From the NCBI GenBank assembly GCA_900319005.1, contig ONMV01000003.1, positions 1 through 64,000 on the forward strand: DNA of 64,000 bases, written 5' to 3'. Under the pieces are notes generated by a model. That model was not told where the DNA came from and ran no database searches. It worked only from the letters and a program-made list of their open reading frames with translations. Position numbers and translations under genes: made by a program. This document shows, piece by piece, positions 2,947 to 5,930 of this stretch (positions are counted from its first letter, which is position 1; each line of letters opens with the position of its first letter). This DNA comes from an uncultured Bacteroidales bacterium. Lineage in GTDB: Bacteria > Bacteroidota > Bacteroidia > Bacteroidales > Paludibacteraceae.

Positions 2947-4215
2947 CTATGCGGAAGCCAACTGTTTCCTATACACGCCATGACGAACCTTTTGTACAAG
3001 CCCCTTCCCTTGCCATTCTTCATTCCACCGGGTAGCGGTGCGATAAGACAAGCCTTGGCTCTTCGCTTCTGTGACTAAGTTTTGAACAGTATACTCCGCC
3101 GGAAGCAGACTCAGCAACACCTGTCTCTGGTCCAACACCTGCACCTGCGGCACCGACTCTTCCTCCACACCCTTGATCATCTTGTACGCCGCCGCCATAT
3201 GCAGCATCAGCTTGTTCCCGATCATCTCCGCTATCCGGTAATCCTCATCCGAACAATGTAATCCGGTCTGTATTCTGTCAGTGAAACGGTCTGTACTCTG
3301 TATTCTCAGTGCGCTAAGTACCATCGCCATCCGCTCGATCTGAACCGCCATACGCAGTACCACGGAGTGGAAATTAGAGCCCAACAGCTGCATCAGCATC
3401 GGATACGCGTTCTCCAAGTGCTGTCCCAGACGCGCCCGTTGCTCGTCGCTCAGCCTGAACTCCACGGGCTTGCTGAAATAGAGCTGCTCGTACAGCCCGT
3501 ACAACTGCTCCGCAGCCACGCGCATCACGCCGTTACTCCCGCGTCCCGGCTCCACATACTGATGGTTAAAAGCCTGTTGGTCATTCACAATCAAAGTCAG
3601 CAACCGCGAGAAATAACCGTTCTCGATACTCGGTACCAACGCTTTGTACTGGCTGAACGTACCCGTGAGCAGCACGGACAGCTGCGGACAAGCAATGACG
3701 GAAGAGTTGTTCGCACGGTTGCGGGTGATAGGTTCGTGTTCCGCCGCCTTACGCAGCGCAGTATTATAGTTCGCTACCGACGAACGCCATACATCGGTGA
3801 TAACCGAACCTTCGCTCTCATGGATATAACCGCGTCCGTTCTGTTTCTCCAGTTGGCGGTAGAAACCCGGATAGGACGAGTCGCCGGCGATAACCAGCGG
3901 TTGCGCCTCATGCACTTTGCTCACTAACTCCAATGCGAGATTGGCGATACCCTTTCCGCAAGCCGCAGAACCCACAATAAAGCATTGCAAGTTCGGAAAA
4001 TACTTCTTCCCCGTCAGTCCGTAGCGGAAATAGAGATTAGGCATACAGCTCCCCGCCGCAGTCAGCAGCGCGAGCAGCAGCATGTCTTTCTCCGCATCCG
4101 TCTGTGCGAGTGCCATTACCGGTTGGATGATTGCCGGCAGTGCCTCCGGCTCGATGTGTTTGGCGATGTGAAGATCCTGCTCCTCCTTCGCCGGAATAGA
4201 TAGATTGTCAATCAT
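2947..4215 (-). CDS. DUF3987-like P-loop protein (primase/helicase-associated family)
   Basis: A protein of about 422 residues (start at 4215; the frame is also open to an ATG at 4245). A Walker-A-like GSAACGKG lies at about residue 82 and a conserved HESEGSVITDVW at about residue 132. The C-terminal 50 residues look like a winged-helix segment (SYRTATRWNEEWQGKGLV). The layout resembles DUF3987 proteins, which occur in Bacteroidota often near mobile or replication modules; biochemical activity is unknown. The start at 4215 is preferred because it aligns with the paralogue beginning at 63567, which shares GPTGKKY, LQCF, GKGIAN and HESEGSVITD. An odd stretch, RIQSTDRFTDRIQT, is encoded by a CTGTATTCTGT-type repeat at about 3261-3307. 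The leader holds a remarkable hairpin array (4341-4717). Confidence 0.7.
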   Translation of the reverse strand: MIDNLSIPAKEEQDLHIAKHIEPEALPAIIQPVMALAQTDAEKDMLLLALLTAAGSCMPNLYFRYGLTGKKYFPNLQCFIVGSAACGKGIANLALELVSKVHEAQPLVIAGDSSYPGFYRQLEKQNGRGYIHESEGSVITDVWRSSVANYNTALRKAAEHEPITRNRANNSSVIACPQLSVLLTGTFSQYKALVPSIENGYFSRLLTLIVNDQQAFNHQYVEPGRGSNGVMRVAAEQLYGLYEQLYFSKPVEFRLSDEQRARLGQHLENAYPMLMQLLGSNFHSVVLRMAVQIERMAMVLSALRIQSTDRFTDRIQTGLHCSDEDYRIAEMIGNKLMLHMAAAYKMIKGVEEESVPQVQVLDQRQVLLSLLPAEYTVQNLVTEAKSQGLSYRTATRWNEEWQGKGLVQKVRHGVYRKQLASA

Positions 4216-4340
4216 AATTAGTAAGGTGTTAAAATGGTTAAACATTAAAGTCCTTAAAGACCCTCTCTATTATTAGGCGTTTTAGGCATAGCACCGCAGG
4301 TAAATGCGCCTTTCTCCCCTCTCGACCCTCTCACCAAGTA

Positions 4341-4717
4341 GCGACAGATCTTCCCCCTCTCACCCCTTGTAAAACAAGGGAAGAAAAAAAGCACTAAAAA
4401 TCCTGTCGCTTTTTTCTTCGTCCTTTTTTCATTGCTTTTTCTTCGTTCCGTTCGCGGTACTTTAGTGCCGCGTTTTTGTCTTTTGTCTTTGTCCCCTTCG
4501 GCGGCATTCTTGCCGCCGTTGTATTCTTTGTATTCTTTGTATTCTTTGTATTGTGCCGACTGGTAGTCGGCGTTTCTTTCTTCTTTTACGCGGGATAGTA
4601 TCCCGCCGTATATTCTCGGCAGTTACAGGCGTTTGCCAAACGCCGCTTTTTCTTCGTTCTGTTCTCCGCGGTATTCCGCGGAAAAGATTCTTTGTATGGT
4701 ACCGACTGCCAGTCGGC
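4341..4717. repeat. Array of short hairpins with near-uniform stem length and different sequences
   Basis: At least eight small perfect or near-perfect hairpins: 4364-4380 (CCCTTGT/ACAAGGG), 4454-4471 (GCGGTAC/GTGCCGC, one G-U), 4500-4517 (GGCGGCA/TGCCGCC), 4555-4571 (GCCGACT/AGTCGGC), 4590-4606 (GCGGGAT/ATCCCGC), 4628-4644 (GGCGTTT/AAACGCC), 4665-4682 (TCCGCGG/CCGCGGA), 4702-4716 (CCGACT/AGTCGG). The first is enclosed by a further 7-bp pairing, GCGACAG at 4341 with CTGTCGC at 4403. Stems are 7 bp (the last 6), loops 3 or 4 nt, and the linkers are T-rich on the plus strand. Start-to-start distance of the last five is 35-38 nt. Linkers of units 2 and 7 (CTTTTTCTTCGTTC) and of units 4 and 8 (ATTCTTTGTAT) are homologous. 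A 9-bp tandem repeat (GTATTCTTT) sits at 4521-4552. Confidence 0.85.
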
Positions 4718-4819
4718 GTTTTCTTTGTCCTCTCTCGCCTAAATCTGCCTATCCCTACCTATATTCGGCCTAAAGTGGCTTATTTATGCCTGATTATGCC
4801 GAAAAAAAGCACCCAAATC

Positions 4820-4850
4820 TTGCATATATCAAAAATTATATGTACCTTTG
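4820..4850 (+). promoter_or_regulatory. Bacteroidota-type promoter of the RNA candidate
   Basis: TTG at 4820-4822, 20-bp spacer, TACCTTTG at 4843-4850. Predicted transcription start at about 4856. Confidence 0.75.
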
Positions 4851-4855
4851 CAGCG

Positions 4856-5161
4856 CAAAACGAAAGTTTTGCCGTATCGAGCCCACGCAGAGGGGATATG
4901 TCTTTCGGGCGGGTGAGATACAGGACATATTGAAAAAGGCGTCTTAAGCGCTTTGTTTTGGCTTGTTGGAATCTCGCAAATTCACTACTTAGGCCCAAGA
5001 CATTGCAGCACAAGATGCCCGTGGGTATGTAATTATCAATATACACGCATGGCGAGTATATTTTTTACATACGGCGTGGGCTACGTGTTGCTGTTTGGGT
5101 TTAAAGGCAATGCGAGAGCCTCAACAAGCGGAACAGCAATAATGCAGTCCCGCTTTTTTAT
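4856..5161 (+). ncRNA. Candidate structured non-coding RNA, family not recognised
   Basis: About 300 nt bounded by a good promoter (4820-4850) and an intrinsic terminator (5126-5161), with no credible coding frame. Visible pairings: a 5' hairpin GCAAAAC-GAAA-GTTTTGC (GNRA-type loop) at 4854-4871; a 9-bp long-range stem AGCCCACGC (4880-4888) with GCGTGGGCT (5074-5082); ATATGTC (4896-4902) with GACATAT (4924-4930); GTATGTAA (5025-5032) with TTACATAC (5065-5072), enclosing ATATAC/GTATAT. I looked for tmRNA, RNase P and SRP RNA signatures (TPsiC arm, GAGGAAAGTCC-type P4, GGAAGC-type loop) and found none. 6S RNA cannot be excluded by eye, although the fold does not look like a single long hairpin. 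The downstream lipoprotein gene starts 97 nt after the terminator. Confidence 0.6.
5126..5161 (+). terminator. Intrinsic terminator of the RNA candidate
   Basis: AAGCGG (5126-5131) pairs with CCGCTT (5150-5155), followed by a T run to 5159. Confidence 0.65.
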
Positions 5162-5258
5162 TTATGTATATAAGCAGAACGGAGAAAGCCGAAAATCCGC
5201 TACAGAGTAGGCGATTTACTTAAAACGAAGAGGCGATGCTATAACAGCCTAAAAATGT

Positions 5259-5930
5259 ATGAAAAACTACAAGTTCCTCACTTTGATTGTTGTCTTGGGG
5301 CTTACGTTCTCAAGCTGCAAAACGGCACTTAATGTTCCGTTGACTCAACCCAAGCAACAGCTTTTCGGGCAAGAGCGGATGGAGTTTATCGGCTTCAAGA
5401 ACTTGCCGCCGAAGAACAAGACGCTGGAGAATTTCGGTATGCAGTTGGAGCGCGCGCACATCGCAGTTAACCGACAGGATTTCTACATGGGTGTCTATTC
5501 TTTCCAAGAATTAGAGGTCTATAAATCCTCCATGAGGTATGTGTCATTTGTGGACATCGAGAAAATCTCCTCCACTTACAACGACGGCATTAATGACAAT
5601 CCCAGTTTGACCACATGGGGATGGTTTATGGCGGGTTTTACGGTCTTTACCTTACCGATGGTTTATGTGCCCATGATCGTTTGTGGTAACAAAGATTACT
5701 GCCAATTGTCAGTAAATCTCAAATGCAAACTGTATGTTTATGACACGGTGAAAAAAGAGATAGTCCTTACAACTCCGATCGACTATCAATGGGCAGAGAC
5801 GTACAAAGGTCAGTACCTGCACAAAGACACCAACCGCGATGCCATCAACGACAGCAACCAGGCTCGCATCTACAACGAACTGCTGGACTATTACGCTCGC
5901 GCGTATAATTTTATTGAAACATTGAAATAA
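5259..5930 (+). CDS. Lipoprotein of unknown function
   Basis: A 223-residue protein. MKNYKFLTLIVVLGLTFSSC is a type II signal peptide with lipobox LTFSSC and the lipidated Cys at 20, so it is probably anchored in the inner or outer membrane. Around residues 125-145 there is a hydrophobic segment (WGWFMAGFTVFTLPMVYVPM) followed by two Cys (CGNKDYC). The C-terminal third is hydrophilic and contains a D-rich stretch. I do not recognise a family. The next gene encodes another exported protein on the same strand after 30 nt, so the two may form one unit ending at the terminator at 6504-6531. Confidence 0.75.
   Translation: MKNYKFLTLIVVLGLTFSSCKTALNVPLTQPKQQLFGQERMEFIGFKNLPPKNKTLENFGMQLERAHIAVNRQDFYMGVYSFQELEVYKSSMRYVSFVDIEKISSTYNDGINDNPSLTTWGWFMAGFTVFTLPMVYVPMIVCGNKDYCQLSVNLKCKLYVYDTVKKEIVLTTPIDYQWAETYKGQYLHKDTNRDAINDSNQARIYNELLDYYARAYNFIETLK

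Follow-up and report, generated by a model that had tools for sequence, protein, structure and literature searches.

The closest described relatives of the elements reported here are the GTAG REPs and REPtrons: dispersed short palindromes that carry a one-sided unpaired tag and accompany a flanking Y1/HUH gene (PMC6006769). Twelve Y1 subclasses were distinguished by Quentin and colleagues, whose Table 1 holds no Bacteroidetes subclass of about 330 amino acids; the REPs of subclass 2.4 are described as including in-frame copies inside the transposase gene, between its HUH and Tyr motifs, and the enzyme of that subclass as having no C-terminal extension (PMC6006769). Recognition of both tag and palindrome, in differing degrees, has been reported for three REPtrons (PMC8266576). 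The CGTC repeats (Di Nocera 2013), which include Neisseria dRS3 and Rickettsia RPE-4/6, carry CGTC in an unpaired tag at one end, occur as intergenic and in-frame intragenic copies, and have Bacteroidetes among their reported phyla; as characterized in that survey, they have stems of 8-9 bp with outer A-T pairs, loops of 4-5 nt, mostly a CCA tail and a mostly head-to-head paired arrangement, and are presented without an associated transposase (PMC3733652). In IS608 and ISDra2 of the IS200/IS605 family, hairpin recognition and lagging-strand targeting are described (PMC6006769), and these provide the model for the mechanism proposed below.

The units described here resemble the GTAG REPs in that a palindrome recurs at many places in the genome (68 matches), bears a one-sided tag, and flanks a Y1/HUH transposase gene. 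They differ from them in the absence of a GTAG/GTGG foot, the tag being CTTCGTCCATTnn and separated from the stem by 2 nt, in their 3-nt loop, and in their assembly into head-to-tail mosaics, whereas the GTAG REPs are described as inverted pairs. CGTC is also present in the tag, as in the CGTC repeats, but 6 nt from the stem and not at the stem foot; here the stems are of 7-8 bp with the A-T pairs beside the loop, the loop is of 3 nt, there is no CCA, neighbors lie head-to-tail (46 vs 1 inverted) and a transposase is linked. The linked enzyme shares the predicted fold and HUH motif of IS608 and ISDra2, with the HUH motif and catalytic Tyr lying on the predicted Y1 fold, but in the present system the repeated unit is the hairpin itself. 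The combination of a length of 326-371 aa with a DprA-like C-terminal domain is absent from Table 1 of PMC6006769, and a search of the open-licence literature returned no paper in which ‘REP-associated tyrosine transposase’ and ‘DprA’ occur together.

The array lies in a window of 64,000 nt (the whole stretch of DNA analyzed), at 4341-4717, flanked on one side by the start of a DUF3987 gene on the minus strand and on the other by a divergent ORF on the plus strand, at 5259. The preliminary description of the locus had counted eight hairpins, and all eight were located in the sequence:

2947-4245, minus strand: neighboring DUF3987 gene (PF13148), not the cause of the array
4364-4380, no strand assigned: hairpin A, CCCTTGT-AAA-ACAAGGG, untagged, with a negative tag score
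4441-4472, plus strand: unit B, tag CTTCGTTCCGTT and hairpin CGCGGTAC-TTTA-GTGCCGCG (4453-4472), 8 bp including one G-U pair, 4-nt loop
4487-4518, plus strand: unit C, tag CTTTGTCCCCTT and hairpin CGGCGGCA-TTCT-TGCCGCCG (4499-4518), 8 bp, 4-nt loop
4521-4553, plus strand: 9-nt tandem repeat of GTATTCTTT type, between units C and D and extending into the tag of D
4542-4571, plus strand: unit D, tag-like TTCTTTGTATTGT and hairpin GCCGACT-GGT-AGTCGGC (4555-4571), 7 bp, 3-nt loop
4574-4609, plus strand: unit E, canonical, tag TTCTTTCTTCTTTTAC and hairpin GCGGGAT-AGT-ATCCCGC (4590-4606), 7 bp, 3-nt loop
4613-4644, plus strand: unit F, variant tag TTCTCGGCAGTTACA and hairpin GGCGTTT-GCC-AAACGCC (4628-4644), 7 bp, 3-nt loop
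4652-4682, plus strand: unit G, tag CTTCGTTCTGTTC and hairpin TCCGCGG-TATT-CCGCGGA (4665-4682), 7 bp, 4-nt loop
4688-4716, plus strand: unit H, tag-like TTCTTTGTATGGTA and hairpin CCGACT-GCC-AGTCGG (4702-4716), 6 bp, 3-nt loop

The reported loops of 3 or 4 nt were found in all eight, and the starts of the last five are 35, 38, 37 and 37 nt apart, as described. The stem lengths required partial correction: the second and third stems are of 8 bp and not 7, and the last (6 bp) and the other five (7 bp) are as first given. When hairpins were counted with a perfect stem of at least 6 bp, at least 4 G/C per arm and a loop of 3-5 nt, five fell within one 300-nt stretch of the array, compared with at most two per any 300 nt in five simulated 64-kb sequences and two in the densest 300 nt of the window with the array excluded. 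The window hairpins are real and much denser than chance. Searched against Rfam, the array gave no match at the gathering cut-off, and those obtained at E up to 5 were at chance level.

The linkers had been likened to serial terminators because they are T-rich, with the reservation that no plus-strand gene precedes them. A terminator scan of the plus strand from 4100 to 5300 gave eight sites against 1.7 expected; two of the eight represent the same hairpin in alternative forms, and another, at 4936, falls outside the array. The reservation was justified, as the array is not preceded by the end of any plausible plus-strand gene, and the T-rich part is the element’s own tag, preceding the next hairpin; serial intrinsic terminators were rejected on these grounds. 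Beyond the array, the Rfam DUF805b RNA (RF02914) was matched at 5179-5213 on the plus strand with 42.1 bits, above its cut-off; the ORF at 5259 follows about 45 nt further on and matches no Pfam family. The plus-strand interval 4840-5170 is long, holds no clear gene before that ORF and ends in a hairpin and a T run; no Rfam family reached the cut-off within it, and it has the look of a Bacteroidetes-type promoter. It may be a small RNA gene.

Alignment of the sequence preceding the hairpins gave a tag profile of CTTCGTCCATT and two free bases, with the hairpin immediately after. The unit is a tag, CTTCGTCCATTnn, of about 12 nt followed by a hairpin of 7-8 bp with a 3-nt loop, and variants with 4-nt loops exist. 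With the best of four offsets taken, the tag score places seven of the eight hairpins among the top 1.5% of positions in the window. The tag of E is canonical (top 0.01%), those of B, C and G, the units with 4-nt loops, are clear (top 0.22%, 0.15% and 0.11%), and those of D, F and H are weaker (top 0.6%, only 1.4%, and 0.9%). Hairpin A has no tag and is probably not a family member. Model R1, a covariance model of the unit, matched D at 4544-4574 (E 0.003) and E at 4577-4609 (E 2.1e-6, the sequence of E being itself included in the R1 alignment).

Several of the short, high-identity matches to the array begin about 15 nt before a hairpin and end at it or just after, and the ends of all 41 matches have medians of 17 nt before and 13 nt after the hairpin. 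Such borders identify tag plus hairpin as the module. Elsewhere in the same genome, a module near-identical to B is found at two places in C15 and one in C19, G has a 91% match at C34, and the core of H also adjoins a transposase gene at C16; C has matches in relatives, and the stem of F recurs behind a CTTGGTAGTTTCA-type tag in two fetched loci (L012 and L071). The similarity that had been noted between linkers consists mostly of the conserved tag plus the 9-nt tandem repeat at 4521-4553. Growth of the array by duplication, which had been deduced from it, is only partly right: adjacent units carry different stems, and these recur elsewhere in other orders.

Among 300 units in all fetched loci, stems were of 7 bp in 252 and 8 bp in 45, frequencies that are biased because many loci were fetched with a pattern fixing part of the stem, and loops were of 3 nt in 296. 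These units were divided between intergenic positions (148), the inside of mechanically called ORFs (101) and locus edges (51). The A-T pairs of the stem adjoin the loop. A second hairpin family, of ATCNGCCA-NNNN-TGGCNGAT type with 8-bp stems and 4-nt loops and often AG-first, is also scattered in the genus (e.g., L041, 1418-1437).

The distribution of the unit was examined with R1 in 41 genomes (this one, 24 of the same genus and 16 of other families of the order), scoring being limited to 150 candidates per genome. With matches accepted at E up to 0.5, this genome had 68, the same-genus genomes 1-57 each and the genomes of other families 0-2 each. Most unit-like matches outside the genus look like chance; two genomes there hold matches better than chance (E 3.1e-4 and 0.006). 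The repeat family is, as far as tested, confined to one Bacteroidales genus, a group of gut bacteria whose named relatives are Paludibacteraceae. Within its own genome the array DNA gave 45 matches at E up to 10, ten of them below 1e-5 with the array itself included, and several of the matched places hold further small-hairpin arrays, lying in intergenic DNA or, in some cases, within genes. All but two of the 80 loci listed from a scan of named genomes are titled Bacteroidales, Bacteroidia or Paludibacteraceae bacteria, and several bear ruminant sample names. In 464 kb of unselected sequence 15 units were found, a background of about 0.03 per kb.

Units also occur in six stretches of four viral contigs, and a closely similar unit is shared by two differently titled loci and viral contigs. 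One unit-bearing viral contig has transposase and DNA transposition protein family matches, as in Mu-like phages. A phage source of the units was considered and not adopted. A coherent phage or phage-like subfamily, GTCCRTTGC-GCCGGAT-NNN-ATCCGGC, lies near gene boundaries in viral contigs (L250-L254) and in L164 and L211. In L211, L246, L250 and L252 a phage-type unit lies where an ORF of 167-168 aa begins; the ORF in L252 matches phrog_286.

A candidate enzyme was sought among IS200-type transposases. Matches to PF01797 were present in 23 of 61 genus genomes, and a plain IS200/RAYT link through this family was rejected as weak, units being found in 18 of the 23 genomes with a match and 22 of the 38 without. 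Reading of 30 IS200-type loci brought out one clade with a W-x-W-Q start; among the matches listed, only this clade carried these units, and the other IS200-type loci carried other hairpins. The clade proteins begin M..WHWQEPG, are 326-371 aa long in the five aligned, and show a PDHxH (HUH) motif and a YVxMNP-type catalytic Tyr motif in alignments. A five-member profile found relatives in 42 of the 61 genus genomes at E up to 1e-8, and the clade proper (E under 1e-120) in 28.

Thirty loci yielded 26 clade genes (L320 and L329 have no ORF, L335 is partial and L336 belongs to another clade), five of which had defined the clade (L307, L308, L309, L310 and L334). A tagged hairpin lies inside the coding region of 24 of the 26, and of 19 of 21 when the five discovery genes are removed; 15 of the 26 have one within 400 nt outside the gene. 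The background density predicts about one unit across all 26 genes, and the 82.6 kb around 25 other Y1_Tnp loci contained none. Of the four clade genes in this genome, three carry units. The gene at C1 has one tagged hairpin inside it and is preceded by a row of three more, each with a different stem; at C16, one unit is inside the gene, one overlaps its end and one, with the CCGACT-GCC-AGTCGG core, follows it; and the gene at C7 contains one unit and has another overlapping its end. No units were found at the fourth, C22.

Unit numbers were also compared between genomes, the comparison being uncorrected for the relatedness and completeness of the genomes. The mean number of R1 units per genome was 31.7 with a clade gene and 14.8 without (n 15 and 10; one-sided p 0.005), and pattern counts allowing at most two mismatches had means of 5.4 and 2.4 (n 28 and 33; one-sided p 0.009). 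Two genomes with no detected clade gene nevertheless hold many units: G021 (63% complete) has 57 and G012 (92% complete) 28. There is good support for the repeat family and for its association with a distinct transposase clade.

The predicted structure of a clade protein (alignment-based; mean pLDDT 79.6, pTM 0.72) was compared with known structures using Foldseek, which returned Y1 transposases in complex with stem-loop DNA, namely IS608 (2a6o), ISDra2 (2xm3) and a REP transposase (4er8), each with probability 1.00. Weaker than these Y1 matches was DprA of Helicobacter (E 0.04, probability 0.93), and a further match was to ShosA (8zva; E 1.7e-4), presumably DprA-like. On this prediction the clade enzymes appear to be REP-associated transposases of the HUH/Y1 type that carry a DprA-like domain at the C-terminus. 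The internal hairpin encodes residues within a part of the structure predicted with low confidence (122-136), as would be expected if the hairpin is a tolerated insertion. PF01797 scored below its cut-off in the three clade proteins scanned, as did NCBIfam REP_Tyr_transpos, which was well under its cut-off in two clade members (6e-8 and 1e-6) and also below it in two sister enzymes (8e-10 and 3e-12).

Relatives at E up to 1e-40 were found in 8 of 295 genomes of the order: this one, one of the same genus and six of other families. Several distant relatives carry a small hairpin of their own immediately upstream of the start codon, which recurs within the gene or behind it, such as GCGACG-NNNN-CGTCGC (L371 and L363) and TGCCCGCA-TCTT-TGCGGGCA (L367). 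Hairpins of their own, beside and/or inside the gene, were seen at sister long Y1 transposases (L289, L288/L133, L291, L371, L363 and L367), comprising TTCGCTCA-TCAT seven times, CTCGGCA-TATA, CGGCGATA, GCGACG and TGCCCGCA. These observations point to a broader class of long Y1 enzymes that have cognate hairpins.

The claim that both arms of the stems changed together was examined in the named genomes and viral contigs using a scan pattern in which stem position 2 and its partner were left free. Among the matches listed, 143 of 148 distinct exact matches had a Watson-Crick pair at the free position (C-G 79, T-A 52, G-C 12), with two T-G and three other mismatches, and the claim held. Alignment A1 was made from perfect stems, and its 100% pairing is no test of pairing. 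A scan of the loci with the tag only, taking the best of four stem/loop geometries, gave 2,532 matches, of which 296 had no stem mismatch and 141 had one, apart from a hump at 4-5 mismatches that is due to chance. The one-mismatch class contains some chance near-palindromes. Off the outer pair its single mismatches (n=56) include 19 G-T and 14 A-C, and with the outermost pair included there are 28 and 29. As RNA under selection should favor G-U, the near equality of G-T and A-C indicates that pairing matters in DNA. The mismatch balance argues for pairing at the DNA level and not the RNA level, and fits the cruciform or single-stranded DNA that had been offered as one of two options.

Paired changes could also arise by mutation, if template switching within a quasipalindrome copied one arm onto the other, with neither selection nor function. 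This is an established mechanism of arm homogenisation and spacer inversion (PMC8604942); it also yields two-sided changes, and it may well produce new stem types here. Spacer inversion should, however, mix loops with their reverse complements, and several loops are lopsided (GTC 37 vs GAC 4, GCC 28 vs GGC 2, TGT 18 vs ACA 0), although copies are related and other loops are about even (ATT 21 vs AAT 16, AGT 12 vs ACT 10). Template switching also leaves unexplained the conserved tag, the dispersal of the units, their presence in coding frames and the transposase link, and as a full account of the array it is unlikely.

The units have a direction. Among pairs within 120 nt of each other, 46 are head-to-tail and one is inverted. 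The tag strand was C-rich in raw skew at 67 of 89 loci over the whole sequence and at 78 of 96 at third codon positions; these raw figures were set aside as partly confounded by gene orientation. With plus- and minus-strand genes averaged separately, the tag strand was C-rich at 35 of 47 loci at third codon positions (p 0.001) and at 47 of 63 over all positions (p 0.0001), with 27 of 40 at second positions and a null result at first positions (26 of 49). The ribosomal L16 operon is usually on the leading strand. Ribosomal protein S3, the intended leading-strand marker, was not found in this genome, and L16 of relatives was used; in its flanks the L16 strand was G-rich in 10 of 12 cases at third positions and 8 of 14 over all. 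With moderate confidence, the tag-bearing strand probably has lagging-strand polarity.

Short palindromes in arrays may also be the binding sites of a protein that reads double-stranded DNA, such as a repressor or nucleoid protein, and not mobile elements. The 17-bp palindromes with a 3-nt center, and the copies near gene boundaries of phage contigs, have the look of such sites. Among 83 units chosen for variety, however, there are at least 36 different inner 7-nt stems, so that self-complementarity is kept and sequence is not, and neither a one-sided tag nor a one-way orientation would be expected of symmetric sites. We consider this reading decidedly improbable.

The other option that had been offered was a leader RNA of the DUF3987 gene, with the prediction that arrays would stand upstream of its homologues. 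Homologues were present in 15 of the 41 genomes, and 14 of their loci (one 80% identical) were examined. None has a hairpin array in the available 415-700 nt upstream; each has 0-4 perfect hairpins there, compared with eight upstream of the window gene, and there is one doubtful tagged unit at one locus. Tagged units do lie within six of the 14 homologues, where the frame is open and the linker variable where aligned, and within 500 nt after five, giving nine of 14 with a unit in one or the other position, above the background of about 0.03 per kb. Units therefore often land, or are kept, at DUF3987 genes, although these genes are not their master, and the excess there is unpredicted by the transposase model. 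A leader RNA or serial attenuator regulating the DUF3987 gene or its neighbors would suit the position of the array between that gene’s start codon and a divergent gene, the terminator-like sites on the plus strand and the frequency of units in and after the homologues, but with no array upstream of any of the 14, arrays at many unrelated loci, no G-U preference and no Rfam match at the gathering cut-off, it is very improbable.

At four loci (L057, L058, L059 and L060) the tagged unit lies about 96-116 nt downstream of the DUF3987 homologue, which may be an old shared site of a DUF3987 cassette. A second DUF3987 paralogue, 53% identical, occupies the window from 63558 onward and runs past its end (G000:C27:63558-64811), with a tagged unit just downstream at C27:64919-64951; another unit, with the same core and score, lies at C27:136659.

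The array is, in our judgment, most probably a REP-like cluster whose units are recognized, cut, rejoined and inserted as single-stranded DNA by a HUH/Y1 enzyme of the TnpA_REP kind. Such an enzyme, encoded elsewhere in the genome, would recognize the tag and folded hairpin in single-stranded DNA, and would cut and rejoin the unit during replication. New units would be added next to existing ones, always in the same direction, so that head-to-tail mosaics result, and stem sequence would be free to change while paired because only paired stems would stay substrates. We infer that the units are mobile and that the clade described here encodes their mover, together with the cleavage, the insertion and the strand preference of the reaction. 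Whether this is a new REP subclass, in which a HUH-DprA fusion reads tag and hairpin shape and writes one-direction mosaic arrays, is an evenly balanced question.

If these proposals are correct, a CGTC-type palindrome family would gain the dedicated transposase reported as missing in the 2013 survey (PMC3733652), and the sister enzymes of other Bacteroidales families would each have a cognate hairpin of their own. The case bears on how REPs spread and what REP enzymes read, and hundreds of natural stem variants are available here, with the hairpin types, the arrays and the candidate enzyme all in one genus. The system makes sequence-free hairpin recognition, the direction of insertion and the role of the DprA-like domain testable with oligonucleotides.
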